Below, in pieces: positions 3,840-22,135 of a stretch of DNA of 22,135 nt. The stretch comes from a virus. The DNA lies in the IMG/VR virus record IMGVR_UViG_3300030419_001928, positions 13,881 to 36,015 of that record; one strand, 5' to 3'. The notes beneath the pieces were generated by a model. It saw only the letters and a list, made by a program, of their open reading frames with translations. It did not search any database and was not told the origin of the DNA. Numbering within the stretch: the first letter of the stretch is position 1; each line of letters opens with the position of its first letter. The translations under genes were made by a program, and so were the position numbers.

Positions 3840-4333
3840 TGGCATCGTTGAGTAAGGAAATAGAAAACGCACTTGCTGAAGGTAACGGATTACAGCCGTC
3901 TGATAATCGTGGTAATCTACCTAAGATCGCTAACGGTATAGCTAAAGCTGTAGAAAAGTGGCTTACTAAGCAAACGTTTACTATAACTGAGTTTGAGGGT
4001 GGAGTTGGTATAGAAGAAATTCAAATTAAAAAACCAATAAATCTTAACGTGGCAATTGATCCGAGTTCTATAGTAGTAGGAGGAGCAGCAGGAGCACCAG
4101 CTGTTGCTGGAACACCTTGTCTACCAAACCCAGCAACCTTTGCAATTAATAAAGGAATATCAATTGCTAAATTAATGCCGCAAACATTAAGGTCACAAGA
4201 TATGGAAGCTTGGGGCAAAGCAACACTTGGTAATGTTCCACATGTAAAGGGAGCACAAAAAGCAAATGCAGAAGGCAAATGGAATCAAGTAGCAAAGGTG
4301 CGACTAGATCCATCTAACGTGAGAGAAGTATAA
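3839..4333 (+). CDS. hypothetical baseplate-region protein
   Basis: This is a 164-residue soluble protein. Its N-terminal 55 residues predict a helix (IANGIAKAVEKWLTKQTFTI) leading into beta strands. A low-complexity Ala/Gly segment follows (VVGGAAGAPAVAGTPCLPNP, residues 80-99), then a mixed C-terminus with KLMPQTLRSQDMEAW. It has no transmembrane segment despite the Ala/Gly run, and no motif I can tie to a function. TAATG overlaps at both ends (3839 and 4333) place it between the preceding small protein and gp25, so it is probably co-translated with the wedge proteins. It may be a virion or assembly protein specific to this phage group. Confidence 0.72.
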   Translation: MASLSKEIENALAEGNGLQPSDNRGNLPKIANGIAKAVEKWLTKQTFTITEFEGGVGIEEIQIKKPINLNVAIDPSSIVVGGAAGAPAVAGTPCLPNPATFAINKGISIAKLMPQTLRSQDMEAWGKATLGNVPHVKGAQKANAEGKWNQVAKVRLDPSNVREV

Positions 4334-4827
4334 TGGCAGCAACACAACAACCAGATTCAGCAGTTGACCCAACACAAAGTCAGCAAGCTCAAGCGCCAAA
4401 CGATCCAATTACTCAACCATATATGGTTGATAGAGATTCAAACGTTTTTGTTGGAATAGACTATCCCTTTCATAAAGCTGATACAGCACCTGGATGGTTT
4501 GCATCTACACAAACCACATTACTTGCTGTAAAAAATAATTTAAAAATGTTATTATTAACTGAACGTGGTGAGCGATTAATGCAACCAGATCTTGGATTGG
4601 GATTGAGACAGTTTTTGTTTCAACCAATTACAGAAGATCTTAGAGCAAACATATCAGCTGAAATACAACGAATGATAGACATTTGGTTACCATTTGTAGA
4701 GATACGTGAATTGCACGTAAGTCCAGGATCAGGTGGAGAGGACAATAGATTATTAATAAAAGTAATATTTAATATTACAAGAGACCCTAATACCCTAGAA
4801 TCCGTTGAGGTAGATATAGGAGAATAA
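4333..4827 (+). CDS. gp25: baseplate wedge protein gp25 (GPW/gp25 family)
   Basis: This is an inner-baseplate wedge component, conserved in all contractile injection systems. It bridges the wedge to the sheath and initiates sheath assembly. Residues 35-150 fit the family: a long helix (TLLAVKNNLKMLLLTERGER, ending at R81), then MQPDLGLGLRQFLFQP, then a helix around IQRMIDIWLPFVEIREL and a C-terminal beta strand (LLIKVIFNIT). The 'TERGER...P..G.GLR..LF.P' pattern is the gp25 hallmark. A 35-residue Gln/Pro-rich N-terminal extension (AATQQPDSAVDPTQSQQAQA) makes it longer than T4 gp25 (132). The older 'lysozyme' label of the family is not supported for this fold. It starts in a TAATG overlap and is followed after 2 bases by gp6. 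Confidence 0.92.
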   Translation: MAATQQPDSAVDPTQSQQAQAPNDPITQPYMVDRDSNVFVGIDYPFHKADTAPGWFASTQTTLLAVKNNLKMLLLTERGERLMQPDLGLGLRQFLFQPITEDLRANISAEIQRMIDIWLPFVEIRELHVSPGSGGEDNRLLIKVIFNITRDPNTLESVEVDIGE

Positions 4828-4829
4828 GA

Positions 4830-7070
4830 ATGCCGTACGAAGACAATCAATATTCAGAAACAAATGTAAATTATCTTAATAAAGATTTTTCAACACTCAA
4901 AGGTAATTTAATTGAATATGCAAAAACCTATTTTCCAAACTCATACAAAGATTTTAATGAGACATCACCTGGTATGATGTTAATTGAAATGTCTGCATAT
5001 GTTGGAGATGTATTATCATTTTATATAGACCAGCAATATAGAGAGATGATGCTACCCTTAGCAGAGGAGAGACGTAGTGTAATGAATCTAGCTAAGATGT
5101 TAGGATATAAAGTAAAACCATCTGTACCAGCTTTTGCAAACATAACATTTACACAAACTGTAGATGCATCTTCAGATGGCAGTGAACCAGATTATAGTCA
5201 GGCTGTAGTTGTAGCATCAAACCTACAAGTAAAATCAGTAACTGATTCTGAAATAGTATATGAAACTTTAGCTCCACTAGATTTTACTATAAGTGGATCT
5301 GGAACTGGTTTCCAAGAACCTAGCATTAGTGCAATCAATGCTAATGGATTAGCAACTAGTTATGATTTGAAAAGAACTGTAAAAGCAATATCTGGTGAAA
5401 CTAAAACAACAACTATAAACGTCGGCACACCTAAGAAATTTTTAAAACTAACTCTAGAAGATACTGATGTCGTTGATATAATAAGTTGTGTTGATTCTAA
5501 TGGTAATGATTGGTATGAAGTAGATTATCTCGCACAAGATAAGATACCTGTTGAAACGCATTATACTGCAGACGGTGATCGCACTACAGCATACGAACGT
5601 ATATCAGATGAAACGTCAACACAAATACCAGTACCTTATACATTAACTTATAAACAAACCGGGAAGCGTTTTATTGTAGAAACAAATGATGATAATACAA
5701 CATCATTGTTATTTGGAAATGGCGTGTTAAGACATGGTGGAATACAAACATCAGCCTTTCTACAATCACAGCAAGTTGGAATAACGTTCCCGGGAAACAC
5801 AGAAAATTTAATAGAAGCCATTGATCCACAATTAGGTGATGAGTATTCTACTCTAGGAGAAACTCCAGCACAAACGGCATTAACAATCACATATAGAACT
5901 GGTGGTGGAATAGTAGCAAACGTCCCTGCCGGCGATCTTACAGAGGTAGGAACGATTACATATTTACAAGGAAGTGATGCAACAATAACATCTACAAACG
6001 AAGATCCAGGTGTGGGTGGATCAAATGAAGAATCGGTAGATGAGATAAGGCAAAGAGCAAAAGCGCATTTCTCTACACAAAACAGATGTGTAACTAAAGA
6101 AGATTACGAAGCTAGAATTATCAGTATGCCTGCTAAGTTTGGAAACCTTGCTAAGGTGTATGTAAACAGAGCGGCTATGTTTAGTGAAACGATGAGAGGT
6201 ATTATTGACACCAATAATGATAAAGTAATTAATGAAACAGATGCAAGCACGTATCTTGAGCTTGGTGAGAAGGATTATACAGTAGCGTTTGTTGAGGAAC
6301 TACTAAACCAATATCCAATACTTAACGATCCAAGTAATGAAGTAGAATTTAATTTTGATACAATGCTTCCACTCTTGACTAGTATGGCAACGATAGTCGA
6401 TCCAGTAAAACAACAATCAGCTAATATAGGTAATGCACTCAATACATTACTTTCTAATGATCAGAATTTACCAACAATTGACGTGTACACTTTAAGCTAC
6501 AACAACAAAAAAGAGCTTACAGGAACACCAATGGATCCAATTGGTATTAATATAAAAAGTTATCTAAATCAATTTAAATTAATAACAGATGAAGTAATAA
6601 TTAAATCTGGTTACGTAATAAATTTTGGAGTATTGTTTGATGTGTATGCTCACAAATGGGCCAACAAACAAGAAGTTAAATTTAAATGTATTCAAAAAAT
6701 AGCTGACTATTTTGTGATAGATAAAATGCAATTTCGTCAACCAATTTATCTAAGCAACTTAGAATATTTGTTAATGGGTGTGGAAGGTGTCAGATCTGTA
6801 CAGTATGTTTGTGTAACACAAGATGCAAATTATAAATCTGATCCAATTGATGCACTTGCTTTCAAACCAAGATTATATTCAACATCGTGGGACGCTGATT
6901 CAGGAACGTGGGTTGACCACTCAGGTGATACAGAAAACTTTTCACCAAACATGGGATACAAATTTAATTTTCAAGCAGCTGAAGAAAACGGAATCATTAG
7001 ACCTTCAGTGACACCAGCGGTTTTTGAACTAAAGAATCCAGAACTGAATATTAGGGGGAAAGTAAGATAA
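4830..7070 (+). CDS. gp6: baseplate wedge protein gp6 (baseplate J-like)
   Basis: This is a major inner-baseplate wedge protein. In T4, dimers of gp6 with gp7 form the ring around the hub that switches from hexagon to star on infection. N-terminal residues 1-110 are characteristic: NYLNKDFSTLKGNLIEYAK, then SPGMMLIEMSAYVGDVLSFY and EERRSVMNLAKMLGYK. About residues 390-450 carry the J-like signature: DPGVGGSNEESVDEIRQRA followed by RCVTKEDYEARI (V421-Y426). The C-terminal domain includes NIKSYLNQFKLITDEVIIKSG and KIADYFVIDKMQFRQPIYLS. At 746 residues it exceeds T4 gp6 (660). Part of the excess is a segment after residue 445 containing an EF-hand-like loop (DTNNDKVINETD, 460-471). GGAGA near 4818 provides the ribosome site, and the stop overlaps the next gene (TAATG). 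Confidence 0.93.
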   Translation: MPYEDNQYSETNVNYLNKDFSTLKGNLIEYAKTYFPNSYKDFNETSPGMMLIEMSAYVGDVLSFYIDQQYREMMLPLAEERRSVMNLAKMLGYKVKPSVPAFANITFTQTVDASSDGSEPDYSQAVVVASNLQVKSVTDSEIVYETLAPLDFTISGSGTGFQEPSISAINANGLATSYDLKRTVKAISGETKTTTINVGTPKKFLKLTLEDTDVVDIISCVDSNGNDWYEVDYLAQDKIPVETHYTADGDRTTAYERISDETSTQIPVPYTLTYKQTGKRFIVETNDDNTTSLLFGNGVLRHGGIQTSAFLQSQQVGITFPGNTENLIEAIDPQLGDEYSTLGETPAQTALTITYRTGGGIVANVPAGDLTEVGTITYLQGSDATITSTNEDPGVGGSNEESVDEIRQRAKAHFSTQNRCVTKEDYEARIISMPAKFGNLAKVYVNRAAMFSETMRGIIDTNNDKVINETDASTYLELGEKDYTVAFVEELLNQYPILNDPSNEVEFNFDTMLPLLTSMATIVDPVKQQSANIGNALNTLLSNDQNLPTIDVYTLSYNNKKELTGTPMDPIGINIKSYLNQFKLITDEVIIKSGYVINFGVLFDVYAHKWANKQEVKFKCIQKIADYFVIDKMQFRQPIYLSNLEYLLMGVEGVRSVQYVCVTQDANYKSDPIDALAFKPRLYSTSWDADSGTWVDHSGDTENFSPNMGYKFNFQAAEENGIIRPSVTPAVFELKNPELNIRGKVR

Positions 7071-8209
7071 TGCATTATTATATTTTTTCTACAAAAGACA
7101 ATTGGGTGTCAAGCGGGTCTAACAAAATAGATGGCGAAACCTTTACAGATCAAAACTTTGGACGTGATGAAATACTCGAACTAAAAAAAGTTTTTTATGA
7201 CGAATCGTTTGATTATCAAACTAGAGTATTGGTTAGTTTCAAAGGAACAGATTTTACCAACCTTTCACAATCTGTAGTTGATGGTGATATAACTAATCCA
7301 AGATATTATTTGAGATTATATGAAGCTAACGGGACACAAGAAATACAAAACGAATATAGCCTAATAGCACATCCAGTAAGTCAATCTTGGGATGAAGGTA
7401 TAGGCAAGTTTGCAGATGATCCAAAAGTTACAGATGGATGTAGTTGGGTCAATAGGCAATGGCCTCAAGGTAACTCCGCTCAATCTTGGAGTAAGGCAGA
7501 CGGTAGTCCTAGTGACGGGCCTTCTGTTATAACTGGTTCATTATTAGCAGCAACTCAATCATTTAGTAACGAATCACCAGACATTAACATGGATGTCACT
7601 GATTTGGTTACATATTGGTATGAGAATGGTGCTTCTAAAAATCATGGATTACTATTAAGGTTTTCAGGTAGTCAAGAAACAAACGAAACTGGTAGTGAAG
7701 TAACTACTGGTCAATTTAAATTCTTTTCAAGAAATACAAATACAATATATGCTCCAAAGTTAGAAGTAAGATGGGATGATCACACACCATGCTCTGGATC
7801 TAACACTGGTAGTTTGTTAGAGATGACGATGAGTGGACAGACAGATTATATACTAAACACTAAGGGATTGCAAAAAGCATATAAGGAGCAAGATAAAGTA
7901 AAATTTAGAATACGTCCAAGAGAACGATATGTTCAAAAAACGTTTTCAAGATCAGTTCAAACTACAAGTGGATCATTTATTCCAGAACATAGTGGGAGCT
8001 ATTCTATTGTAGATTTAGCTACTGGTGAAACAGTAGTACCATTTAGTGCATACACTTCAATGAGTTGTGATGCAGAAAGTAATTATTTTATACAGTGGAT
8101 GAATGGATTCCATCCAAACAGAGCTTATAAAATATTATACAAAATAAAATTTAACGATGGACAAGAAAAGATATACGACGACGACTTTGAGTTCATTGTA
8201 AGGTCATAG
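7070..8209 (+). CDS. probable baseplate/virion protein with DNRLRE-like beta-sandwich
   Basis: This 379-residue protein has no signal peptide or membrane segment. Residues about 80-240 resemble the DNRLRE beta-sandwich of extracellular proteins: YYLRLYEANG, an SQSWDEGIGKFAD turn, VTDLVTYWYENG (from about residue 176), NHGLLLRFSGS, then FKFFSRNTN and PKLEVRWDDH. The order 'V.D.V..WY....NHG..L.F......F.SR.....P.L.V' is the family logic. The last 120 residues (KVKFRIRPRERYV ... YKIKFNDGQ) look like another beta domain. It follows gp6 directly (TAATG). T4 has gp7 and then gp8 here; I see no convincing gp8 similarity, so a replacement or add-on wedge or fiber-attachment protein is an inference. 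The next gene's Shine-Dalgarno overlaps its stop. Confidence 0.65.
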   Translation: MHYYIFSTKDNWVSSGSNKIDGETFTDQNFGRDEILELKKVFYDESFDYQTRVLVSFKGTDFTNLSQSVVDGDITNPRYYLRLYEANGTQEIQNEYSLIAHPVSQSWDEGIGKFADDPKVTDGCSWVNRQWPQGNSAQSWSKADGSPSDGPSVITGSLLAATQSFSNESPDINMDVTDLVTYWYENGASKNHGLLLRFSGSQETNETGSEVTTGQFKFFSRNTNTIYAPKLEVRWDDHTPCSGSNTGSLLEMTMSGQTDYILNTKGLQKAYKEQDKVKFRIRPRERYVQKTFSRSVQTTSGSFIPEHSGSYSIVDLATGETVVPFSAYTSMSCDAESNYFIQWMNGFHPNRAYKILYKIKFNDGQEKIYDDDFEFIVRS

Positions 8210-8214
8210 GAGGA
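8208..8214 (+). promoter_or_regulatory. strong Shine-Dalgarno site overlapping a stop codon
   Basis: AGGAGGA overlaps the TAG stop at 8207-8209 and lies 5 bases before the ATG at 8220. Terminating ribosomes would be placed directly on the next start. It fixes the start of the 575-residue protein. Confidence 0.8.
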
Positions 8215-8219
8215 CAGAT

Positions 8220-9947
8220 ATGGCGGGTACACCTGACGTTGATTATCAAGACCCAGCTCTTCAGGAAAATCAAAGTGTAAGCACTGATACTTTTTATTCA
8301 AAAGAACAAATTGTAGATAAAGTCCAAGCGCTTTTGATATCAAAAGAAAATCTTTTGGTAGATGGTCAATTGGAAAATTATCAAAAAACAGTTCGTGATG
8401 GTAAAATAGTACGTGGTAGATTACCAAATGAAAAAGCTGTAATCTTCTCAAGCGATCTGCTATCCAACGTCGACGACTTACCTATATTTGATACCATACA
8501 ATCTCTACTTCATCCAGATGGAACAAATCATCCTGCGGCTCTTTCTTTAGATGACTTAACAATAGAATCACACGTTATTCCAAGTACTGGTGAGACTGCA
8601 TACAACATGAGGTTAAATGATATTCCTATTGATGTGGATGGTAAAGCGTTAGATAACTTTAATCAGTATTTACGACTTCCAAGTGGAAAAACTTTTATAA
8701 ACAGAGACAACGTTGATGGCATTATTGATACAGATATATACGAATTAATACCAGGTGGTACTGAAACTAAACAGGCTCGTATTGATAGATTCTTTGCTGA
8801 ATATAATGCATTGAAACCACCATCTCCAGTTGACGAAGAAGTGTTACTTGATGGGGATGGAGATGGTCTAACAGATACTATGAGCAACTCAGGTGCCCTT
8901 CTTTTTTCTAACCAATACGATATATCATCTGCAGATACAGTAGCAGAAGCCAATGATAGATTTATAACATGGTTACGAGAAAGTGAAGATGACACAAACA
9001 ATACTAAAAGTTTAGAATGGTTAAGAAACGACTTAAACAATAATTATTTTTTACAAGAAGATCCAACAATAGAAGATGCTGATGAGCGACCAGAATATTC
9101 ACCAGTATCAGAAGGATATTTTAAAATAAGACAATTGAACCAAGCTATTATTATACGTAATGAACTCGGATCAGATGTTGGTTTCATAGGTGCAGACACA
9201 TCTAATCCTAATTATCTTAGAACTGGTATTACCATAGCTATGTGGGTAAAGTTTTTAGATAGAGTTAATACAGGAACATTATTTAATTTTGGTAATCCGT
9301 TTAGAGAAGCTTCCCCCACAGGGTTTGCATTAGAGACGTTTGTTGTAAATGACGATGGTTCTATTCCCGGATACTATGATGCATTTACTGGCAACGAAGG
9401 GTGGGACATTGATCTGTTACCAGAAGATGCATTTACTCAAGGAACGTCTGAACGATTTGTAAGGTTCGTTGTGTATGAAGAGCCTGTAGCTGATCCACTT
9501 GAAGGAACTACATATAATACAAGGTTAAGAGATTCAAACAAACCCAATGTAATGGAGAGAGTCAATTCTGCACGAATCGGTGGTGCCCTAGCACAACAAA
9601 GAGAAGTTGCTTGGAACTATACAAGAATACCATTTGATTATGATGAGTGGTATTATATAGTAGCAAATTATAATCCGTTTACTGATGAAGAGAGTTCAGC
9701 TGGAAACTCAAACGCCATGGATCCAGATTTTTGGAACTGGTATAGAAATGCAGACGGAACATATACAAATTTCTCAGGGCTTGGTGCTAAATGCAAAGTT
9801 GATTTTATATCAAAAACTACATTGTTAAAAGCTCGAGGATATAAAGTAGATGAAGAAGCTACAGTACAATATTCAAGTCGAGATAGAGATATAAGACAAA
9901 TGACTGAGCAACAAGAGGACATCGATGAGACATCACTTAATATGTAA
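8220..9947 (+). CDS. virion protein with LamG/concanavalin-like domain and calcium-loop motif
   Basis: This 575-residue protein has an N-terminal 130 residues that look like a tail-attachment part (FYSKEQIVDKVQALLISKEN). Residues 211-219 read DGDGDGLTD, exactly the DxDxDGxxD calcium-binding loop of dockerin/EF-hand-type motifs. Residues about 310-550 resemble a concanavalin/LamG jelly roll: YFKIRQLNQAIIIRNE, then GITIAMWVKFL...TGTLFNFGNP, the FDYDEWYYIVANYNP strand, and VDFISKTTLLKARGY at the end. Such domains commonly bind glycans, so host-surface attachment is the likely role (inference). It lies between the DNRLRE-like and Cys-rich genes in the same operon. The C-terminal 30 residues are Gln/Asp/Glu-rich and probably disordered. 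The exact virion position is unknown. Confidence 0.68.
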   Translation: MAGTPDVDYQDPALQENQSVSTDTFYSKEQIVDKVQALLISKENLLVDGQLENYQKTVRDGKIVRGRLPNEKAVIFSSDLLSNVDDLPIFDTIQSLLHPDGTNHPAALSLDDLTIESHVIPSTGETAYNMRLNDIPIDVDGKALDNFNQYLRLPSGKTFINRDNVDGIIDTDIYELIPGGTETKQARIDRFFAEYNALKPPSPVDEEVLLDGDGDGLTDTMSNSGALLFSNQYDISSADTVAEANDRFITWLRESEDDTNNTKSLEWLRNDLNNNYFLQEDPTIEDADERPEYSPVSEGYFKIRQLNQAIIIRNELGSDVGFIGADTSNPNYLRTGITIAMWVKFLDRVNTGTLFNFGNPFREASPTGFALETFVVNDDGSIPGYYDAFTGNEGWDIDLLPEDAFTQGTSERFVRFVVYEEPVADPLEGTTYNTRLRDSNKPNVMERVNSARIGGALAQQREVAWNYTRIPFDYDEWYYIVANYNPFTDEESSAGNSNAMDPDFWNWYRNADGTYTNFSGLGAKCKVDFISKTTLLKARGYKVDEEATVQYSSRDRDIRQMTEQQEDIDETSLNM

Positions 9948-9950
9948 TAG

Positions 9951-9957
9951 AAGAGGT
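9951..9957 (+). promoter_or_regulatory. Shine-Dalgarno site deciding a GTG start
   Basis: AAGAGGT ends 8 bases before the GTG at 9966. The first ATG-like triplet downstream (9980) is out of frame, and the stop of the previous gene is at 9945-9947, so GTG at 9966 is the best start for the 1693-residue protein. Confidence 0.6.
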
Positions 9958-9965
9958 AATTAGCT

Positions 9966-12900
9966 GTGGCTGTAGCTCAATGTTGTAGTAACCAATCTGG
10001 TGATCACGGCTATTGGACATGCCAAACTAATCAATACGGTAATGTTGAATTTTACTACACCGTAAATGGTGAGGACACTAATCAATGTGCTAATCAAGCA
10101 TCAAGACCACAATACGTAATCGACAACCCAGAGGCATGGTGTCCTTCTTACCCATATGAAGGACAAGGACAATGTGTTTGTAATGGTTGCGAAACTGAAT
10201 ATTCGTGTAAAGAAGAAACATCTGGTCGACCAACACCATGTAATTTTGATGATAGCGGTACTCATCATAATCCAGATTTATGCTCTTTTCCATTTCAATG
10301 TTGTATATCATCAAACGGTGTTAGTTGTGACGAATTTTGGATTAATCAGATGGGCACAGTAAATGCATGCGCAAATGATTTCCAACGCGGACAATATAGT
10401 CCTGGTGGAGATGGAGCCGCAGAGGTTTCATACAATCAAAATACATACACCTGGGCAAACGGTCAAAGTCCAAATGGTGTTTATAACGGAGGTTGTATTC
10501 AACCTACACTTGATTCATATCAAAATGGTGTAGAATTAGATTATATAGAAGCGCTTTTAGATACTGAAGGATGTACACATCCAGGTGCTTGTAATTACGA
10601 TCCAGTAGCATTTATAGATAATGGAACTTGTTGGTTCCCAGCAGAACTGTTTATAGAAGACGGGGATATTCCATGGTGTGAGGATCAATATGGCGACGTA
10701 CCAGTTGATGAGAATGGAGTTCCAACACTATGTAAACAAAATCCATTTGTAACTTATATATCATCAGAATCTAATATTGTTGATGGTGTAGAACTTGGTC
10801 CACCAAGTGGAGAATTTGATCCAAGACTTTTTAACGACGATGGTGATCCAGTTCATCAAAACAGTGAATTTGCTTGTTGGGGTGGAGACGATTGGAGAGC
10901 TGACGGAACAACAGATCTTTACGAACCATTCTACGGTTGCTGGTGTAGTGATATGGATTACCTAAATGGTGCTCCAAATGGAAACAGCACTAATCATCAA
11001 GCAATGTTTCCACAACCAAATTTTAGAAATGACCCAGATGCTACTCAAACTGAAAGTGGTATTTGGGATCCAAATTATAATGACGCTTCTGATTGGTGGG
11101 AGGATTGGGTTTACGCTTGTGGTGAGGGTGGAACGCAATATTCTCCTAACGACGATACAGATCCAATAACTTATACTCGCTCGAACGCAGATATGATTGG
11201 ACCATACAACCCATACTACTTCTGTTCAGATTTTAATTGGATAGTTGATGCTGAAGATAGATTAACATATATGAATGCTAGAGCTAACAATCAACTAACA
11301 GAATATGATGGACCATATCCAGGAACACATTGGACGTGGAGACAATCCAATCCAGCATTTCAAGTAGATGAAGACGGACAAGCTGATGAAGACAATCCAC
11401 CTTTAAATCCAGAAGCGTGTACAGATCCAAACGCATGTAACTACAATCCATATGTAACATTATCATGCTTTCAAGATCCAGGTAATGGAACGGTTGTAGA
11501 AAACGGTTGTTGTACATATCCCGGACCACCTGAAGAAGGAGCTGACTTTCCTAACCGTGGTGAGTTTTTACATATACACGAACAACTTACAGAAGCGGAT
11601 GACTTGTATGGAGTATACCAATGTGATGATATTGGAATCAATGGAGGGTTTCCATATTGTGCTAACCCAGGTAATTTAGATATTGGTGGTGCATCAACAC
11701 ATTACTTTGATGATGCGCTTCAAGAAATAATATACAACCCTTCAGGATTAGCAGAGCAATGTTTAGATACCAACACAGAATATAATAGTGATGGTCAAAT
11801 AATAAGACTAGGTAGTATGTGTGCTGAAGGAGAATCCGCTCCAGATGATTGTAACGGTCACGAGCCAAATTATTGTAATACACAATTTGTTCAATATGGA
11901 ACATGCGACACTGGTGAAGGATGTGACCACGTATTACCAATTGTACCAGCGTATGATTGTAACGGAGTCTGTGGTGGAACTTCTACATACGATTGTTCTT
12001 TTGATGAGTTTGAAGATGAGGGAACACCAAATTATGGTATTGGAACAGGATGGAATGAGAGTGCTTGTATAGGGCCTTACGAAACACCAAGAATTGTTGA
12101 CGACCTTGGTGGGTGTTGTTTTAGAACTGAAATGGATGCTGTTGATCAATGTTTTGGAACAGTAGTGTTGACAAGTTGTAATGAGCTTATTGATGAAGTG
12201 AATGGTGGTACACCAAATCCAATGACCGGAGAAATATATCCAACAGAACCAACAATTATTCAAGACGAATGTGGTGTCTGTGGAGGACCAGGTGACATAT
12301 ACGAATGTTCACAATTTGAAGGTGGTCCTAATTGTTTTAATCTAGTTCCACCAGATCCACCTAATGGTAGACCTGTAATAGGAGTTACTTGTGACGATGG
12401 ATCAGTTGTATGTTATGAAGAATTATGTCCTAGAGATATAACTAAAATTGATATACAAAGTTTATGGGATAGTGGAGAGCTACCAGCTTCTATTGAAGGT
12501 GCTTGTGTTGAAATAGATAATTTAGTAGAAGATCCAATTGATTCGTTTGTAATAAACGGACCAAGTAGATTTAGGGAATCTGGAACTGATGAGCCATATG
12601 ATACACAAATGACTTTTTGCACACCACAACATTCACCGCACCAGGGATGGGAAGTGATTGATGATCTAACGGATCCAGAGACGTGGGTGATACAAGCATA
12701 TGGTGTAGGTGATACAAACAATCAAGGTAATTTTTCATACAATACTATATACTCAGGACAAGGTAGTTATGAAAATGTATTGAATAGATTAAGTGGAGAA
12801 GATCCAATTTCAAGGTCAGGTATCAATCAATTCTTTAGACCAGCTACAACAAATAAATCAGATATTGAAGGTCGTGACTTAGATGCAAGACCTGGATTAG

Positions 12901-15047
12901 GATTAACATACTGGGAAGATGATCAGCCATATCAAACGTGGGACGAATTACTTTCTAGTAAACCACATAAATTACCAGATGAATTTTTAACTACAACGTG
13001 GGCTGAAGGTGTAGGCAAAACAATCAAACCAGAAATAATGGCAACTGATAATTGGTTATCTGAACAATGGACACCAGACGTTGATGCTCGAACTCGAGAA
13101 AGTGTTGATCTAGGATATAACGCTCGAGTCACAAGATACTACGATCCAGAATTACAACCAATAGAATATGAATTAAATATGGCACCGTCTGAAGTACAAC
13201 TTTATTTTTATCCAAGAAGAGGTACAATTTTATGTAGTGGTGTTTATAGCAAGTTTGATGAAGATGGAACACATCCATATTACACACATAAACAATGTGC
13301 TGAACATTTTACAAACAATGAAGAAGCAAGACACGTACCACCACCTAATGCATTGAACCCATATAGTACACTTGGGGGCGGTGATAGTGTTCTTAGTAAC
13401 ATACCACGTAGAATAATGGGTGAAGATAGAGATAACAATGGTAACCAACTAAGACAAGCAGGAGTAGATCAATACCTTGATGATGGAAATTTTTATATAG
13501 CTTTTTTAGATTGGGGTGATGGAACTAAACCGCAATATGATGGAATAGATGCACCACCACATCAACTGTTAAGTTATGACAATGCAACATTACTAAAACA
13601 TAATTATACATCACCAGGTGTCTATACAATATCCGGATATATGATTAATATAATGGATGAAGATAGTACACCAAAAGGTTGTCAAGACACTTTTGTGCGC
13701 ACGTATAGTAATTGTGATGAAGCGTACACGTGGCCAGATGAGTTGGCTGAACTAAACGATCCAGATAGTTCATTATGGAATTGGAGAATACTTACGTTTA
13801 GAAAATTTGAATGTAATATAGTTGTCAACGAAGATCCAAATCTAGTTAATGAGTTTCCAGCTGTAGGTGGCTCTGGTGCTATTACCATTCCACAAAAAGG
13901 AACTACAGCAATTGTTGGTGGTGTATCTGATGATAGTATGTATGTATCATCTTTGAAAAGAATGGCTGGGTTTGTTGGTAACAATACAATTATAGAAAAC
14001 ACTTTCCTTAGTTCCCAAGGCGATAGAATGCTAGCAGAAAAATCTTACGCGCTAGTAAACCCAGATGCTGTGGGTGCTGAGATACAAAAGTTTATAGGAA
14101 GAGAAGATAAAGTAGCATGGATAATAAACGAAGATGGTAATAGTCAACCATTACAATTAGTTGACAATATGAATGACCCAGGTCCAAAAGGTTTTTGGCT
14201 TGGTACTTGTCGTCATAATTATTTTAGTGGCGGACCAATAATAGATATGTGGGATAGGTTTAGTGGTGGATATGTTTTTGATACTAGTGAAGATAGAGGT
14301 TCTAATGCATCCACATCAGCCGCCCAATGCATCCCAGAAACATTAAATTATAATCTTGTATATAATGGATATAAAAATGAAAGTGTAGGAGAGTTAGGTA
14401 GGCATGTTGGATATATGGATATAGGACAAGTACGAGCGTTTAGTGGTGTTAGAACAATAGCTGATTTACTTGATGTTCCAGATGTCGCTATAAATGATGA
14501 ACGACATTGGTCTAACATATTACCTATAGAAGAGAGTATTTATAATAGAAGAGGAGTTGTTATAGAAGAAGGTACGATAGTAGAAATTAACGAAGATAGT
14601 GCTCAAGAATATCAAGCTGAAAATCAATTTGGTAACAGGCGATATTATCCTGTATTACCAAAACTTAACAAATTAGGAAAGTTTGATGAAGACCTTGGAT
14701 TGCAAGGCACGGTGTATGATGATAATGGAAACGTAGTATCAGATAGCCCAAACATACAGTTTGGTCAAGATAGAGGGGGATGGTTAGCACCTGATATGCA
14801 AGCACCAATTACAAAAAATAAATTAGATCCAAAAATATTTGATGATTTAATAATAGATTTAAATATGGAAGAAATAGATGAAGATGTTGTTGAAGATCAT
14901 TCCGGAACAAGTAACTTAGGTATAGTAATTAATGATTATCTTATGACTACTCAAACTTCTTTCACTACAAGTTTTAATAAATTAATTAATAAACCTTCTG
15001 TATTAAAAATAAAAAGAGCAACGAATGCAACTAGGAAACCATTTTAA
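9966..15047 (+). CDS. giant Cys-rich modular virion protein with 'DPNACNY', 'CGVCGG' and PKD modules
   Basis: This 1693-residue protein is the largest complete gene here, with a GTG start. Residues 1-900 hold roughly 55 cysteines by my count. Two motifs match a repeat known from secreted proteins of marine Bacteroidetes and from marine viruses: CTHPGACNYDP...NGTC (203-222) and CTDPNACNYNP (485-495) with C501 and CC at 515-516. Two related motifs are DCNGVCGG (664-671) and ECGVCGG (768-774). Residues about 1170-1240 form a PKD-like fold: LDWGDGT (1181-1187), then HNYTSPGVYTI (from 1212). Residues 1316-1500 (IVGGVSDDSMYVSSL, ELGRHVGYMDIGQVRAFSG) and the C-terminus (1624-1660) resemble parts of the next protein. 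There is no signal peptide, as expected for a virion protein. A host-binding fiber or rim protein is likely; the ligand is unknown. Confidence 0.72.
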   Translation: MAVAQCCSNQSGDHGYWTCQTNQYGNVEFYYTVNGEDTNQCANQASRPQYVIDNPEAWCPSYPYEGQGQCVCNGCETEYSCKEETSGRPTPCNFDDSGTHHNPDLCSFPFQCCISSNGVSCDEFWINQMGTVNACANDFQRGQYSPGGDGAAEVSYNQNTYTWANGQSPNGVYNGGCIQPTLDSYQNGVELDYIEALLDTEGCTHPGACNYDPVAFIDNGTCWFPAELFIEDGDIPWCEDQYGDVPVDENGVPTLCKQNPFVTYISSESNIVDGVELGPPSGEFDPRLFNDDGDPVHQNSEFACWGGDDWRADGTTDLYEPFYGCWCSDMDYLNGAPNGNSTNHQAMFPQPNFRNDPDATQTESGIWDPNYNDASDWWEDWVYACGEGGTQYSPNDDTDPITYTRSNADMIGPYNPYYFCSDFNWIVDAEDRLTYMNARANNQLTEYDGPYPGTHWTWRQSNPAFQVDEDGQADEDNPPLNPEACTDPNACNYNPYVTLSCFQDPGNGTVVENGCCTYPGPPEEGADFPNRGEFLHIHEQLTEADDLYGVYQCDDIGINGGFPYCANPGNLDIGGASTHYFDDALQEIIYNPSGLAEQCLDTNTEYNSDGQIIRLGSMCAEGESAPDDCNGHEPNYCNTQFVQYGTCDTGEGCDHVLPIVPAYDCNGVCGGTSTYDCSFDEFEDEGTPNYGIGTGWNESACIGPYETPRIVDDLGGCCFRTEMDAVDQCFGTVVLTSCNELIDEVNGGTPNPMTGEIYPTEPTIIQDECGVCGGPGDIYECSQFEGGPNCFNLVPPDPPNGRPVIGVTCDDGSVVCYEELCPRDITKIDIQSLWDSGELPASIEGACVEIDNLVEDPIDSFVINGPSRFRESGTDEPYDTQMTFCTPQHSPHQGWEVIDDLTDPETWVIQAYGVGDTNNQGNFSYNTIYSGQGSYENVLNRLSGEDPISRSGINQFFRPATTNKSDIEGRDLDARPGLGLTYWEDDQPYQTWDELLSSKPHKLPDEFLTTTWAEGVGKTIKPEIMATDNWLSEQWTPDVDARTRESVDLGYNARVTRYYDPELQPIEYELNMAPSEVQLYFYPRRGTILCSGVYSKFDEDGTHPYYTHKQCAEHFTNNEEARHVPPPNALNPYSTLGGGDSVLSNIPRRIMGEDRDNNGNQLRQAGVDQYLDDGNFYIAFLDWGDGTKPQYDGIDAPPHQLLSYDNATLLKHNYTSPGVYTISGYMINIMDEDSTPKGCQDTFVRTYSNCDEAYTWPDELAELNDPDSSLWNWRILTFRKFECNIVVNEDPNLVNEFPAVGGSGAITIPQKGTTAIVGGVSDDSMYVSSLKRMAGFVGNNTIIENTFLSSQGDRMLAEKSYALVNPDAVGAEIQKFIGREDKVAWIINEDGNSQPLQLVDNMNDPGPKGFWLGTCRHNYFSGGPIIDMWDRFSGGYVFDTSEDRGSNASTSAAQCIPETLNYNLVYNGYKNESVGELGRHVGYMDIGQVRAFSGVRTIADLLDVPDVAINDERHWSNILPIEESIYNRRGVVIEEGTIVEINEDSAQEYQAENQFGNRRYYPVLPKLNKLGKFDEDLGLQGTVYDDNGNVVSDSPNIQFGQDRGGWLAPDMQAPITKNKLDPKIFDDLIIDLNMEEIDEDVVEDHSGTSNLGIVINDYLMTTQTSFTTSFNKLINKPSVLKIKRATNATRKPF

Positions 15048-18000
15048 TGGCTAATTATGATCACAAACATCTCGTTATAGGAAATCCAGATAGTGGAGTA
15101 AAGGGGACGTATGAGATTCACGATGGTGAAAACTTTAGTACAAATAATCCATATGGATTATATGACGTCAATTTGTTTACTCAAACTTCTCGGGAACAAG
15201 CTGGAGTTGGAAATGTTGTTGTAGATGATGTGAATAAATATGGTGTCGATGTTACACCTCCATGGAGCACTCAACATAATTTAGTTATACATTGGTTGAC
15301 ATTAAGGTCAAATACTTCCACTGGTGGTTGTAGCGGTGGATACATACACGACAAAGCATATATCTCAGCATGGTTTGTAGATATAGATGAATTAGCTGCT
15401 GGAGGACACGATGGGAGTATAGAAGGATTAAAGAATTTTGTCAATTCAGATCGAGGTAATGGAAAGACTAGTACACGTATGATTTACAATGCGGATCTTA
15501 CTGGTGCAGACAATAAGACTAGTGTTAATCATGTACAGGCTACTGTAAAGGGACCAAGGTCCTTTGCTGGAACTACACATATGGATGCTCAAATATTAAG
15601 AAATAATAAACGAGTTTCTATATGGGGTGGACGGACAGGAGTTGATCATAGTTGGGATATAGGAGCTCACCAAGATGGTGTATCTTTTGGTGTCAAGGGT
15701 GCTTGGGAAAACTACGTTTTTGGAGAGGATGGAACTTGGACAAGCCAAAATCCAGACCAAAGTTTTAACGACAGAGTGCAATACACGGGTCCAATGTATA
15801 GACCACAATTTAATAATTTAAATATAGACGGTGGAACAGGAGCCTACAGACCAAGTGGTATGACTGGAGAAGATGTAAATCCACACCCAACTTTTTTTAG
15901 TGTAGGAAACGGTTCTCAAGATTGGTTGACAAATTCAACTCGAGATGCATTCTCAGAGACTAGTGGTCACTTTGCTATTATTATACGTACTAGAGGTGAT
16001 AGGTGGAAGGGTTTGTCTCCAACATGTCAAAAATCTGGTAGGTATGGATATTATGTTATTAGAATTCCAAAATTTTGGTTTGTTCAAAATCAACGAGAAG
16101 ATATTAGTCCGGCTAGTAGAGTTCCGCTAGGTGTTCCAGGATATTGTCATTATCACAGTTTTGGATGCAGTGATCTTCCTGATGGAGAAGATAGTGAATA
16201 TTGTAACTGGGTGGGATCAGGAACTAATCGTGCGTATCTAGATCCAGCTTCACCGTGGGTTAATAATCACAACGCTAGCAACAGCAACCTTTTAAAAAGA
16301 GGTGCTCAAGGATTATGTGCAAACTTTATCAACCAAGAACGTGCGTATGAAAAACAACTTCAAGGAATCGATCCAGATGAACCAGAAGGTCTTCAATCAA
16401 ACGATCCAGCTGTAAGTGAACCCGCCTGGGAAGAATTATATGATATGTTTAATGAGATTGAGATGACAGACACGTTATATAAAAGAAAATTGTATTCAGT
16501 GACCCAAAATAATATAGATGATTTTATGACTGGTGTTAAATATGATGAATATTTAAGTAGAGGATTATTAGATGAATATGGATATGAAGTAAATGATGCC
16601 GATACTGATCTCAAACCATTCCATAGAGCAAATAACGGAACTAGAAGCATGTTGTTTGATCCAGCTATCAAACGTATGATTAATGATGTTACCCATCTAG
16701 CTTCTCCTGAAGGAACTATAACAATTAATGGTGTAAACTTATATGAGACTTCATCTCAGGGTGGTGGAGCTGCTGGTGTCATGTGGAATGAGATGAGTCT
16801 AGCATTTGAAATACAATCCAGCGCTGAACCAGTATATACAACCAATGAGTTTCCTAATACAGTATGGCGAAACTTTAATATAATTGGATTTGATCCATTA
16901 CAGTTGTGTGATTGGGATACAATAAGAAGTCAGTTTTATGTTGGAGCACAGACATACCCAGTTCCTTTTAACACATTACATCAAACTCTCACAGAAGATT
17001 TTGAGGTGGCATCTAACGTAACAATTACTACAGAAGATGCAGAATATTCTGTTGGTAGATATTATGATGATGTTGATGCATTAGAGGCAGTTTCAGCACC
17101 AGCTACTGTTTCATTAAATTATGAAATACTTAACTCATCAAACACAAACGATGCAGATGCTGTAGTGAAAAATATAGATAGTGAATTTGCTTCACTTGGT
17201 GGTATGATGGCTAGGGTTGTACAATGGGGTGATGAGCAGACGTTAAAATCAAATGGTGAATTGGTAGATGGATTTTCACTGATAAATCGAGAAGATTACG
17301 ATTATGTAGAATTAGAAAATAACAATGATGTTCCTGAAAGAAGTTTTTCACATACGTATGCAGAACCAGGAGCATATACTATTAGAGCATTAATTTTTAC
17401 ATATATTAATCATCCTTATATTGACAATCTACAGATGGCTGTTAAATGGAAATTTGTATCCACTACAGTCAACATACCACAGCCAGGATATATGGTAGAA
17501 GATTTTGGACAAGTAGGTGGATATGATTTTACTACCATACCTTGGAACGAAACTGCTGGAGTGGTTGGAGGAATTTCTGAAGACAGTGGATATATAAAAA
17601 GTTTAAGATCATTAACAAGAGGAGCACCGTTTGCTAACGAAGAGACACCACTTCTTTTAAATATGAGAGAAGCATTAGGAAATGATGAATTGGGAACTCA
17701 TATTGGAAAAGCTGACATTAATACAGTACGAGCTTACATTACAGGAGATTTAGATTTAAGAAGGTTGCACGGTCGACCACCAAAACCAGACGCACAGGTA
17801 GATGGCATTCCAGCATTTGTTAGAAAAGCAGACGCTGAGAAATATGGACTTTTGTTTGTAGGATTAGAAGGAGTGCACGAACACGCGGCTACAGTAAGAG
17901 GTACTATTAAAAAAGTTTATATGGCAGGCAAAGACCACAGTGAGAGTACAGATGAAAAGCAGCAACAATTATTTGCTTTATACTATCCAGATGGAATAAG

Positions 18001-18268
18001 TGCATATCCATCAAACGTAGATACGTATAGCAGTTTAATGGAAGTTGGTATAGATTCTTCAAGAGGTGGTGATGAAGCGGCAACTGCCATACTTGATATA
18101 AATTTTGAAGACATAACAAACAACACTGTTCTTGATGTAAGTGGTAGAGGAAACGTGGGTGTATTTTTAGGTGACTATACGATAAGAAAAGAAGAACTTA
18201 ATCAAAACGCTTCACGAGACAGAGGTATGAAAGTTGGTAAGCAAGGAAAGAAAGATAAAGCTATATAA
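15047..18268 (+). CDS. large virion protein with degenerate PKD and shared C-terminal module
   Basis: This 1073-residue protein starts in a TAATG overlap with the giant Cys-rich gene. The first 480 residues are Gly/Asn/Trp-rich beta-type sequence I do not recognise (WGGRTGVDHSWDIG, YGYYVIRIPKFWF). They include a small cluster of cysteines around residues 365-390. Residues about 720-800 form a PKD-like domain: QWGDEQ (726-731), then SHTYAEPGAYTIRALI (768-783). The first half of the PKD signature is degenerate (GDEQ where GDG is usual). Residues 839-853 (VVGGISEDSGYIKSL) and 881-897 (ELGTHIGKADINTVRAY) parallel residues 1316 on and 1476 on of the upstream protein. Residues 1011-1060 end with LDVSGRGNVGVFLGDY, like the first strands of a LamG domain. 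It is probably a fiber or baseplate-rim partner of the upstream protein. Confidence 0.7.
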   Translation: MANYDHKHLVIGNPDSGVKGTYEIHDGENFSTNNPYGLYDVNLFTQTSREQAGVGNVVVDDVNKYGVDVTPPWSTQHNLVIHWLTLRSNTSTGGCSGGYIHDKAYISAWFVDIDELAAGGHDGSIEGLKNFVNSDRGNGKTSTRMIYNADLTGADNKTSVNHVQATVKGPRSFAGTTHMDAQILRNNKRVSIWGGRTGVDHSWDIGAHQDGVSFGVKGAWENYVFGEDGTWTSQNPDQSFNDRVQYTGPMYRPQFNNLNIDGGTGAYRPSGMTGEDVNPHPTFFSVGNGSQDWLTNSTRDAFSETSGHFAIIIRTRGDRWKGLSPTCQKSGRYGYYVIRIPKFWFVQNQREDISPASRVPLGVPGYCHYHSFGCSDLPDGEDSEYCNWVGSGTNRAYLDPASPWVNNHNASNSNLLKRGAQGLCANFINQERAYEKQLQGIDPDEPEGLQSNDPAVSEPAWEELYDMFNEIEMTDTLYKRKLYSVTQNNIDDFMTGVKYDEYLSRGLLDEYGYEVNDADTDLKPFHRANNGTRSMLFDPAIKRMINDVTHLASPEGTITINGVNLYETSSQGGGAAGVMWNEMSLAFEIQSSAEPVYTTNEFPNTVWRNFNIIGFDPLQLCDWDTIRSQFYVGAQTYPVPFNTLHQTLTEDFEVASNVTITTEDAEYSVGRYYDDVDALEAVSAPATVSLNYEILNSSNTNDADAVVKNIDSEFASLGGMMARVVQWGDEQTLKSNGELVDGFSLINREDYDYVELENNNDVPERSFSHTYAEPGAYTIRALIFTYINHPYIDNLQMAVKWKFVSTTVNIPQPGYMVEDFGQVGGYDFTTIPWNETAGVVGGISEDSGYIKSLRSLTRGAPFANEETPLLLNMREALGNDELGTHIGKADINTVRAYITGDLDLRRLHGRPPKPDAQVDGIPAFVRKADAEKYGLLFVGLEGVHEHAATVRGTIKKVYMAGKDHSESTDEKQQQLFALYYPDGISAYPSNVDTYSSLMEVGIDSSRGGDEAATAILDINFEDITNNTVLDVSGRGNVGVFLGDYTIRKEELNQNASRDRGMKVGKQGKKDKAI

Positions 18269-18312: not shown

Positions 18313-21300
18313 ATGTCCACAGTAGAACATAACTTTTCAGAAAAAGAAAGAGAATTAATTGGTATTGACAATCAAGATGTCAACGTCCAACTTGATGAAA
18401 CTACGTATGCACGTATGTGTGTGTATGATCCAAACGATGTTTATCTAACATCATTTGATACGTTACCTGATACCAATAACGTTTTAGTATATAGTTTTGA
18501 AAATGAAAAAATCTTTATTAAACCTAACGATTCTTTACAAAGTGCTACAATTGAAACAGGACAATATAGATTAAAGTTTGATGTATTACAATCACGTTTA
18601 TTAGAATTACAATTAGCAACTGGATTTACTAATCTTAAATTTCTTGTAACAGAGATATCACCAACTAGAAAAGAAATAAGAGTAGAGCTAAGACGATCAG
18701 TAGCTCAAGAAGGATCTTTCCCAGTACAGCTCTCATCAGATTATCAAAATGATATAAGTAAATTATTTAATAACGTACCGTTAGAATATAGTTACCTAGG
18801 AGCATATAACTTTGATCACGTTGTTATATTACCTCAAGGGTATAACGCTACTATAACTAATTATGTATTTGATACGGTTAGCGATCCGGACAACCCAACA
18901 TTAGTAATAAAATTTAGTGAACCAATACCTAATACACTTGCAGTATTAGATTTTGTTGATGTTGCTCGTGAAGTGGTTGATACAACATACGAAGATATTT
19001 TTTACGATGCTGCATTATATAATGAAGTAGTAGTTTATGATGGATTAGATAGCTATGAAGGACTACTACCAGTTGATTCAAATCAACAACAACTAGATCC
19101 ATTTCAAAGTTCTGCTGACTTAACCGGATCATTTTCTAACAATTCGATACAACAATTATTAATATCTGGAAGTGATGTTAATCTTAACATCGATTATAAT
19201 CATTTTGAAAATCACATATTTTTTGGATCTGCTGTAACAAGGTTAGATAATTTTAAAACTAAAGTATCAAGTATAGAAGATAAATATTTAGAAATATCTA
19301 AATCTCTTGGATATGCTGATCACGTTAGTATGAGTGGTGACTCGACATTTGTAACAGAGAGACGTGAAAATTTATTTAAGGAAGTGCAAAATACTATAAG
19401 CACATTAACACCATATGAAAAGTTCTTATATTATGACAATCAAAGTTTAGCAGAATCAACATCATCAGCACCGGGATTAGGAATAAATCTAACAACAAAC
19501 ACACCGGTGTCATTAACACATTTAGAACAGACATTAGAAGATTTTGAAGGATTTGGTACAGTATATAAAGTATCAACAGCGCCTGATACTGGTAGTAATG
19601 GAGAACTCACTAATGGATTATTACGTGACGTTCCATTGTTTAGTGATTTGTATTATGCTCAAAAGAAACCATTCTTTAGTGATAGTGGATCAATTTATTT
19701 ATCTTTCTTGTTGAAAGGAGACTCGTTTGTAGGTAGTGATATAGAAAACACTAAACTAACGTGGAGAAACAAGAACAATACAACTTCAACCGATCACCTA
19801 AAAGCACCAGAAGACACGCTACATACATCTAGTATATTAGCACCAAGCATTACAGGAAGCAGATGGAGCCGCTTTATATTTGAAGCGTCACAATCATATT
19901 GGAGACCTATTGAAAACAGAACAGTTGGTGGCGGTGGTAATCCTGTTTTTAATTTTGAAGCTGGGTCATCTCAAGTTGAGATATTGAGTGGTTCAAATGT
20001 AAGTGGATCATATCCAATACAATTGTATGGCAATTTTTACAGTGCATTAGGAACTACAATAACGGGTAGTGGAAAACCATTTACAGGTTCAGTGGCACCA
20101 TCTGGAGAATTGTTTAACGTATCATTTCCACGTAGTGTAGATAGTTCTGGAAATCCAATACAAGGACAAGCTCCTGATTCACATACAAGTGTAAATATTG
20201 GTACGCATTATACAGCATCGTTAATAACTGATGTGAAGGTAACAACAAACAATCCATTGAATGTATTACCATTTTCACATTTATATTCAACAAGTAGTGC
20301 TGAATTTAGTAATTGGTTTGACGGAATGAGAGCTTCGGCTTCAGCTTATGATGAAGCTAACATACACAGCTTAGAAAACAATCTACCTAGATTTATCAGA
20401 GACTCAGAAGAGTCAACAGAAATCAAATTATTTGTTAATATGATAGCTGAACATTTTGATATTATACGAAATTATATTGATAATTATTCATCACTTAACA
20501 AACGTAATTATACTAAATTAGAATCTGTCCCAACAAATTTACTTCCAATATTAGCTGATCAATTAGGATGGGAATTAATATCACCTTATACTGGTAGCAT
20601 GAGTGAATACTTCGGAACATCAGAACAAGATAACCAAGTAGGTTCAGGATTATCTGTACAAGAGATAACTAACAACACGTGGCGTAAAGTTGTAAATAAT
20701 TTAATATACATTTACAAAACAAAAGGTACCATGGCTGGTATCAGAGCTTTGTTGAACACATATGGATATCCACCAGATGCAATAAACATAGCGGCTCAAG
20801 GAACTTCAAACCAAAATCCTTTTGGTAAATTAGATGGAGTTGACGATGATGATGTTAACAAACAATACTCTGGTGTAGGTGGTAGTAAGGGTGCAAGCAT
20901 AATCACCAACTCACCAAACCAAAAGAAATCCGCTATATCAGATTTACCAGGAAACATTTCGTTTACACAACAACAAGAAGATTTATTTAGTTATCAATTT
21001 GACACAAGTGGTGATTATAGTTTTGGAAGTAGTTGGTATACATTAGATAAACCAATTAACACGTTAGAGTTTATAGCACGTCCAATATCAACACATAACA
21101 CACAAAGCGTGGTAGCAAGTTCTGGTAGCTTAGGTGAACGCTTTTGGGATTTAATTATTAAACCTTCTGGAAGTGGTTATCCTGAATATGGAGCTGTAGA
21201 ATTTAGAATTAGTACTATATACACCGGATCAACAACAGGAGGTGGTGGTATCAATGGTGTAAATAATGCAGTGTCAATGTCAACTGATATGCTACCAATA

Positions 21301-22135
21301 AAAGCAGAAGATGGTTTTTGGAACATTATGTTGCAACGTGTATCATCAAGTATTAGTGGTTCAGGTACCAATGGATATAAATTAGCTGTAGGTAAATTGT
21401 CAACTTCACAGCCAGATAAGTTTCAATATTTTCAAGTAGTATCAATGAGTGTAAGTGGTGGCTTAGTTGATTCTTATCACAACGGACAAGGTGATTCTAA
21501 TTTCAATGCTAATCAAAATTGGTTAAATACTGGTAGTATAAATGCTGCAGTATCAAATAGTTTGAAATGGGGAGCACCTGTATCTGGAGGATACTCCGGA
21601 AGTATATCTAACGTACGTACTTGGCAAACGCAGTTAAGTATGTCATCATTTAAAGAACATGTATTAAACAAACCATCATCTATAGGTAACACATTAACTT
21701 CGTTTTTAGATGAAGCGGTATATCAATATAAGTTACAAGAAAATTATTTATCTGGTTCAACAAATCTAAAACTAACTGATACTGGACCAGACAAAACAGA
21801 TAGCTATCATATTAATATCCCAGAAACGTTTGTAACAAAATCAATGAGGTTCACATCAGATCAAATTACAACAACTAAGTTTCAATTGATATCAACAACT
21901 GGTAGAGATGATGATAACAAAATATTATTGAATCCAAGCGAATCAGTAAAATCTAATCTCTCAGCTACAGATGAAAGTAATCAAAGTATATACAGTCCAG
22001 TTGAAGGAAAAAGAACAGCACCACAAGGAAAGGTTGAGATAAGTGTTTCACCGGCAAACGTATTAAATAAAATTATATTAAATCATATAGGTCCAACAAA
22101 CGTTGCTAATAAGTTTGGTGAGGCAAAACATTTCA
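18313..22135 (+). CDS. gp7/tail-protein-I-like baseplate wedge protein with LamG-like domain, 3'-truncated
   Basis: The frame is open from ATG 18313 to the window end (more than 1274 codons, no stop), so the gene continues to the right. Residues about 690-820 carry a P2 gpI / T4 gp7-type segment. It reads NLPRFIRDSEESTEIKLF (from 690), then LLPILADQLGWELI (743-756), then TWRKVVNNLIYIYKTKGT (789-806) and MAGIRALLNTYGYPPDA (807-823). In contractile tails this part pairs with gp6/J in the wedge. T4 gp7 has 1032 residues. Residues about 885-1120 resemble a concanavalin/LamG jelly roll (YSFGSSWYTLDKPINTLEFI, then YSGSISNVRTWQTQLS near 1095). The N-terminal 300 residues are beta-rich and unrecognised. 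Many SGS/TGS turns occur in between. The wedge role is a family inference; the added jelly roll suggests contact with host or fibers. Confidence 0.72.
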   Translation, partial: MSTVEHNFSEKERELIGIDNQDVNVQLDETTYARMCVYDPNDVYLTSFDTLPDTNNVLVYSFENEKIFIKPNDSLQSATIETGQYRLKFDVLQSRLLELQLATGFTNLKFLVTEISPTRKEIRVELRRSVAQEGSFPVQLSSDYQNDISKLFNNVPLEYSYLGAYNFDHVVILPQGYNATITNYVFDTVSDPDNPTLVIKFSEPIPNTLAVLDFVDVAREVVDTTYEDIFYDAALYNEVVVYDGLDSYEGLLPVDSNQQQLDPFQSSADLTGSFSNNSIQQLLISGSDVNLNIDYNHFENHIFFGSAVTRLDNFKTKVSSIEDKYLEISKSLGYADHVSMSGDSTFVTERRENLFKEVQNTISTLTPYEKFLYYDNQSLAESTSSAPGLGINLTTNTPVSLTHLEQTLEDFEGFGTVYKVSTAPDTGSNGELTNGLLRDVPLFSDLYYAQKKPFFSDSGSIYLSFLLKGDSFVGSDIENTKLTWRNKNNTTSTDHLKAPEDTLHTSSILAPSITGSRWSRFIFEASQSYWRPIENRTVGGGGNPVFNFEAGSSQVEILSGSNVSGSYPIQLYGNFYSALGTTITGSGKPFTGSVAPSGELFNVSFPRSVDSSGNPIQGQAPDSHTSVNIGTHYTASLITDVKVTTNNPLNVLPFSHLYSTSSAEFSNWFDGMRASASAYDEANIHSLENNLPRFIRDSEESTEIKLFVNMIAEHFDIIRNYIDNYSSLNKRNYTKLESVPTNLLPILADQLGWELISPYTGSMSEYFGTSEQDNQVGSGLSVQEITNNTWRKVVNNLIYIYKTKGTMAGIRALLNTYGYPPDAINIAAQGTSNQNPFGKLDGVDDDDVNKQYSGVGGSKGASIITNSPNQKKSAISDLPGNISFTQQQEDLFSYQFDTSGDYSFGSSWYTLDKPINTLEFIARPISTHNTQSVVASSGSLGERFWDLIIKPSGSGYPEYGAVEFRISTIYTGSTTGGGGINGVNNAVSMSTDMLPIKAEDGFWNIMLQRVSSSISGSGTNGYKLAVGKLSTSQPDKFQYFQVVSMSVSGGLVDSYHNGQGDSNFNANQNWLNTGSINAAVSNSLKWGAPVSGGYSGSISNVRTWQTQLSMSSFKEHVLNKPSSIGNTLTSFLDEAVYQYKLQENYLSGSTNLKLTDTGPDKTDSYHINIPETFVTKSMRFTSDQITTTKFQLISTTGRDDDNKILLNPSESVKSNLSATDESNQSIYSPVEGKRTAPQGKVEISVSPANVLNKIILNHIGPTNVANKFGEAKHF

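Follow-up and report, generated by a model that had tools for sequence, protein, structure and literature searches.

The window, a 22,135-nucleotide stretch of viral DNA corresponding to bases 13881–36015 of a 36,015-base IMG/VR virus record, encodes a two-part, cysteine-rich, putative tail or baseplate protein of 1693 aa with 63 cysteines in one uninterrupted frame (9966..15047, + strand). The N-terminal half carries motifs homologous to those of exported bacterial repeat proteins, the C-terminal half is a module conserved among phages, and the arrangement recurs in other viral contigs. With a probability of roughly 60%, the product is an exchangeable, peripheral adhesin on the baseplate or tail of a T4-like marine phage, whose N-terminal half would be oxidatively folded outside the cell.

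Extent and composition of the cysteine-rich gene

The gene starts with GTG at 9966, downstream of a plausible ribosome-binding site (AGAGG, 9952–9956), and its frame is also open in the parent record. The initial annotation described a gene of 9966–12660 with roughly 55 cysteines; the count agrees with ours (56 in aa 1–898), but the gene runs on to a stop at 15047, nearly double that length, and 9966–12660 (898 open codons) makes up its first 53%. The half that was overlooked is the conserved phage module, and the first half can therefore be read as an exchangeable N-terminal region. The cysteines are unevenly distributed, with 56 within aa 1–885 and seven within the remaining 808 residues. 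The hypervariable N-terminal region (aa 1–885; 9966..12620, + strand) also contains 150 Asp+Glu and 3 Lys. Its cysteine share was 6.3%, compared with 0.1–0.8% in six other structural ORFs, and its lysine share and net charge were 0.3% and −14.6 per 100 residues, respectively, within the ranges of similar bacterial repeat proteins (0–1% and −11 to −20 per 100). The giant relatives described below have cysteine-rich N-termini of similar composition, while the other virion genes differ. The lysine poverty in particular (3 of 885 residues, window 9966–12620) recurs in both the bacterial repeat proteins and the giant relatives. By inspection, the N-terminus (MAVAQCCSNQSGDHGYWT) has no hydrophobic segment and no signal peptide was seen, nor was the C-terminal sorting signal of exported Bacteroidota-type repeat proteins, the C-terminus being the phage module.

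Motifs of the N-terminal half and their relatives

The four motifs previously reported all start at the residues given for them in the translation (CTHPGACNYDP at C203, CTDPNACNYNP at C485, DCNGVCGG at D664, and ECGVCGG at E768). Profile HMMs made solely from bacterial repeat units confirmed both motif types, using 1000 shuffles of the same 890 residues as the control (best shuffles, 8.0 bits for CTDP and 9.9 bits for CGVCGG). CTDP unit 1 (GCTHPGACNYDPVAFIDNGTCW, aa 202–223; 10569..10634, + strand), with a spacing of C-x5-C-x12-C, scored 36.4 bits, and the degenerate unit 2, which contains an insertion (ACTDPNACNYNP...CCTYP, aa 484–517; 11415..11516, + strand), gave a partial match of 14.0 bits at 485–495. 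The second CGVCGG-type motif (DECGVCGGPGDIYEC, aa 765–781; 12258..12308, + strand) reached 19.1 bits, while the first (DCNGVCGGTSTYDC, aa 663–677; 11952..11996, + strand) is marginal on its own because its 10.6 bits barely exceed the best shuffle. The HMM search of the window protein found no tandem CTDP array, only one full and one degenerate unit approximately 280 aa apart, in agreement with the earlier description of few repeats with long unique spacers. The predicted model of the CTDP unit had a mean pLDDT of 68 (85 over the unit itself) and no significant Foldseek match.

Bacterial genomes gathered with a DNA pattern for CTDPxACNY[DN]P provided at least 80 loci, and among the 80 matches listed nearly all were Bacteroidota; two were Neomarinimicrobiota, and an FCB-group MAG and an archaeal MAG accounted for one each. 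The repeats extend beyond flavobacteria to Saprospiraceae, Chitinophagales, Crocinitomicaceae, Neomarinimicrobiota, and one archaeal MAG; the initial assignment to secreted proteins of marine flavobacteria stands as to exported Bacteroidota proteins but was taxonomically too narrow. The motifs do not settle the host, because DECGVCGG is present in both Flavobacteriales (38 of 199 genomes) and Neomarinimicrobiota (12 of 199). For poorly known phages, they give a hint of hosts within Bacteroidota or Neomarinimicrobiota. The phage protein and the bacterial GCTDPxACNYxP/DECGVCGG repeat proteins are alike in motif types, unit-1 spacing, and acidic, lysine-poor composition; the phage protein differs in lacking a signal peptide, in its small number of units and unique spacers, and in carrying the phage C-terminal module. 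A Flavobacteriales protein (L180) contains CGICGGPGDIYECG, and the corresponding stretch of the window is CGVCGGPGDIYECS.

For both motifs, the solved relatives are eukaryotic proteins of extracellular or lumenal location. The CTDP profile matched perforin-2 (MPEG1; PDB 6u2j, E 5e-5) across the CTDP unit, at the site of a truncated EGF-like domain that links MACPF and P2 (PMC6989145), although perforin-2 is a eukaryotic pore-forming protein and has this single 29-residue match and no other domain in common with the phage protein. The CGVCGG profile matched ADAMTS5 (E 6e-6) and, weakly, ADAMTS13 (PDB 9rwm and 3ghm), eukaryotic metalloproteases in which the likeness is the DKCGVCGGDNSSC motif of the ADAMTS cysteine-rich domain and covers 17 residues only.

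Genomic neighbourhood and phage type

The cysteine-rich gene lies among structural genes, all on the + strand. Upstream are a gp25-like baseplate wedge gene (4333..4827; Pfam GPW_gp25, 1.6e-13), a gp6-like baseplate wedge gene (4830..7070; Baseplate_J above the cut-off and phrog_10646, 1.1e-22), a gene for a DNRLRE-domain protein (7070..8209; NCBIfam 1e-8, above the cut-off), and a gene for a 575-aa protein that is syntenic in the relatives (8220..9947). Downstream are a paralogous gene identified by sequence comparison (15047..18268; 1073 aa, 7 Cys) and a large tail protein gene that runs past the window end (18313..22134; TIGR02242, 1.3e-6, and Tail_P2_I, 0.0057, both below the curated cut-offs). 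In the family, a paralog with part of the C-terminal module is usually the next gene where the contig continues. The presence of gp25 and gp6 homologs nearby identifies a T4-like baseplate cluster, and a weak late-sigma-factor match in the PHROG search, along with DNA ligase, polynucleotide kinase, Hsp20, and peptide deformylase genes elsewhere on the record, is compatible with a T4-like phage of bacteria. As far as gene position goes, with gp25 and gp6 baseplate genes upstream and tail genes downstream, the product would be a virion protein, as was initially proposed.

The cultivated gp6 relatives infect Flavobacterium and Microcystis. In Immutovirus (Flavobacterium phage vB_FspM_immuto) and Microcystis phage Mel-JY01, the gp6-like protein is 34–36% identical and the local gene order is similar, but the cysteine-rich gene and its paralog are absent from both baseplate regions at the HMM level.

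Conserved C-terminal module

Same-position proteins of related phages align with the window protein in its second half only (aa 914–1693), and the N-terminal half is similar to bacterial repeat proteins but to none of the family members compared. Whole-protein searches retrieved no matches in phages (tblastn), PHROGs, PDB (by sequence), or viral contigs (single query), and the window protein had no significant Pfam or PHROG match; the family was reached only via the gp6 neighbour and then by C-terminal alignment, which yielded 59 viral loci. An HMM built without the window matched it from aa 1002 (12969..15044, + strand; E 8e-50), in stretches at 1002–1085, 1172–1504, and 1509–1683, and the module represents a new family of phage C-terminal modules. 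One block (aa 1273–1376; 13782..14093, + strand) is common to the product of the next gene and has a second match in its own genome (blastp). The conserved module also offers a handle for finding such adhesins.

Within the module, a putative PKD-like domain lies at aa 1170–1232 (DWGDG...HNYTSPGVYTI; 13473..13661, + strand). The pattern WGDG...HxY..PGxYxV is present in the window protein, the family-level PDB match is weak (family profile against 4xed, E 0.029), and Pfam PKD matched one family member (1.8e-5) and not the window protein. Pfam profiles further detected CBM60 in 3 of 32 members and CBM_4_9 in one of the 32. These CBM and PKD matches point to carbohydrate binding among the members, the window member being without such a match. 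AlphaFold, given 32 sequences, modelled the C-terminal half poorly (pLDDT 43.7), the PKD-like part coming out best, and a Foldseek search with this model returned nothing significant.

Recurrence and exchange of the N-terminal half

Among the 54 members with complete genes, 16 had at least 2% cysteine in the N-terminal part, a fraction biased by five giant members that had been found via the motifs, and the others had approximately 0.3–1.8%. In an independent motif scan of viral contigs, 5 of 20 tested records also carried the C-terminal module. The largest protein (G041; L366, L367) has 6224 aa and 374 Cys and is encoded by an uninterrupted 18.7-kb gene ending in the C-terminal module, and another (G039) combines five CTDP and three CGVCGG matches with the module in one frame of 5364 aa and 326 Cys. 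Two further members (G038 and G052) have about 3400 aa and 282 Cys each. In G037, G038, G041, and G052, the motifs are located in a separate gene just upstream. The same gene order is found in L298 and L344.

One related contig (L015) showed 82.5% identity to the window across 9.9 kb and then diverged at window position 9851, so that DNA homology ends inside the 575-aa gene, just before the cysteine-rich gene. Within one subclade, two or three CTDP units occur in an acidic linker in L241, L257, and L276, and none there in L236 or L267. Judging from these sequence comparisons, the N-terminal part is exchanged. Similar phages that part ways sharply at a single gene typically do so at receptor-binding genes, and the divergence seen here resembles theirs; by this analogy, a binding function is putatively assigned.

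Proposed role and alternative explanations

In the proposed arrangement, the C-terminal half, with its PKD-like domain and conserved blocks, would be the phage-specific part and is most likely what anchors the protein to the baseplate or tail. Attachment via the N-terminus is usual for known tail fibres, and C-terminal attachment, suggested here by conservation only, would reverse this order. The N-terminal half would face outward and be exchangeable, and consists in this phage of acidic, lysine-poor modules of the disulfide-type CTDP and CGVCGG kinds that were probably acquired from Bacteroidota or Neomarinimicrobiota hosts. Its ligands are likely glycans or proteins on the surface of host cells or particles, and the cysteines of this half probably pair once the protein is released into oxic seawater.

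The initial annotation considered that the cysteines might either bind metal or form disulfides after lysis. The cytoplasm in which phage proteins are synthesised is reducing, and to our knowledge these proteins seldom depend on disulfides. A high cysteine content in a protein made there, together with 12 His in aa 1–885, could indicate coordination of zinc or iron-sulfur. CxxC pairs were not enriched in this region (2 observed and 3.5 expected from shuffles), which makes such sites unlikely, and metal-binding was set aside on these counts. Since Pfam also gave no match to a metal-domain profile and both motifs have extracellular modules as their solved relatives, the evidence favours disulfides, and we regard the metal-binding alternative as very improbable. 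Because the cytoplasm is reducing, the cysteines probably pair after lysis. In a search for thiol-oxidoreductase genes, thioredoxin was found in 3 of 17 records and not in this fragment, while the Erv search matched no control genome and is silent on Erv.

The cysteine-rich half might instead copy the exported repeat proteins of the host and dock with them rather than with glycans, as host-surface mimicry or self-association. Motifs and composition do match exported proteins of the likely hosts, and a near-identical stretch (CGVCGGPGDIYEC) occurs in a Flavobacteriales protein, but only two short motif types are common to them, the spacers are unique, and the explanation presumes both a function for the bacterial repeats and a host; we consider it rather unlikely. 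Disulfide-stiffened stalks that distance domains from the baseplate, with no binding specificity of their own, would suit the CTDP cassettes in acidic linkers between conserved domains of L241, L257, and L276, and the related perforin-2 module is indeed a hinge between two domains (PMC6989145). Such a structural spacer, however, does not account for why the N-terminal half is hypervariable throughout or why the breakpoint falls at the cysteine-rich gene, and is in our estimate unlikely. The bacterial-type motifs and the slightly higher GC content of the N-terminal half (0.39 vs about 0.35) would also fit an assembly chimera in which a bacterial exported protein was fused to a phage contig. The uninterrupted frame, the similar architectures of other, independent contigs (L246, L251, L273, and G039), the shared gene order in L298 and L344, and the lack of a signal peptide all argue against this, leaving the chimera with a negligible chance.

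Comparison with known phage adhesins

Modular phage adhesins of the Ig/PKD/BACON type are known, among them those of gut Bacteroidota phages and T4 Hoc (PMC13370021). The window protein resembles them in its putative PKD-like domain near structural genes, in its modularity, and in its presumed surface binding, but those adhesins are described as Ig-like, whereas the window protein has a cysteine-rich N-terminal half and a C-terminal module without a named family. In the limited open-access literature covered, we found no description of a phage family with disulfide-type extracellular modules at such a scale, and no paper was retrieved on the motif sequences or on repeats rich in cysteine in phage tails. 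The presence of tens to hundreds of cysteines in presumed adhesins raises the question of when and how folding occurs. A tentative and more speculative extension of the adhesin reading is that these proteins constitute a widespread marine phage tail family, reaching more than 6,000 aa and 370 Cys, whose host-derived extracellular disulfide modules are synthesised in reduced form in the cytoplasm and become oxidised only once the cell has lysed, with oxygen from seawater completing virion maturation. The shared motifs also suggest that marine bacteria and their phages exchange surface modules.

Additional features of the related loci

A short N-terminal stretch resembling MKIYN...W......EDSFEYDGP opens tail genes in L015, L020, L021, L233, and L246; the window gene lacks it, and its own start falls about where the stretch would end. 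In L020, a small gene that looks glycosyltransferase-like by eye (10682–11359, + strand) is located among the structural genes, directly before a cysteine-rich gene. L096 contains a 1324-aa frame (5036–9010, − strand) in which 143 residues (10.8%) are Cys and CTDP units are numerous, and the same phage also encodes a 3693-aa family member. HINT/intein-like domains adjoin a stretch rich in Gly at two loci, within the cysteine-rich gene or next to it, namely at aa 274–436 of the L251 protein (ECFVAGTKV...FFANGILTHN-S; PF07591, 2.8e-8) and, by eye, in an 813-aa frame of L344, and self-cleavage or splicing of the tail protein is possible. The N-terminal part of the 5364-aa protein (L364 in G039) includes a Lamin tail domain (LTD, 1.9e-9).
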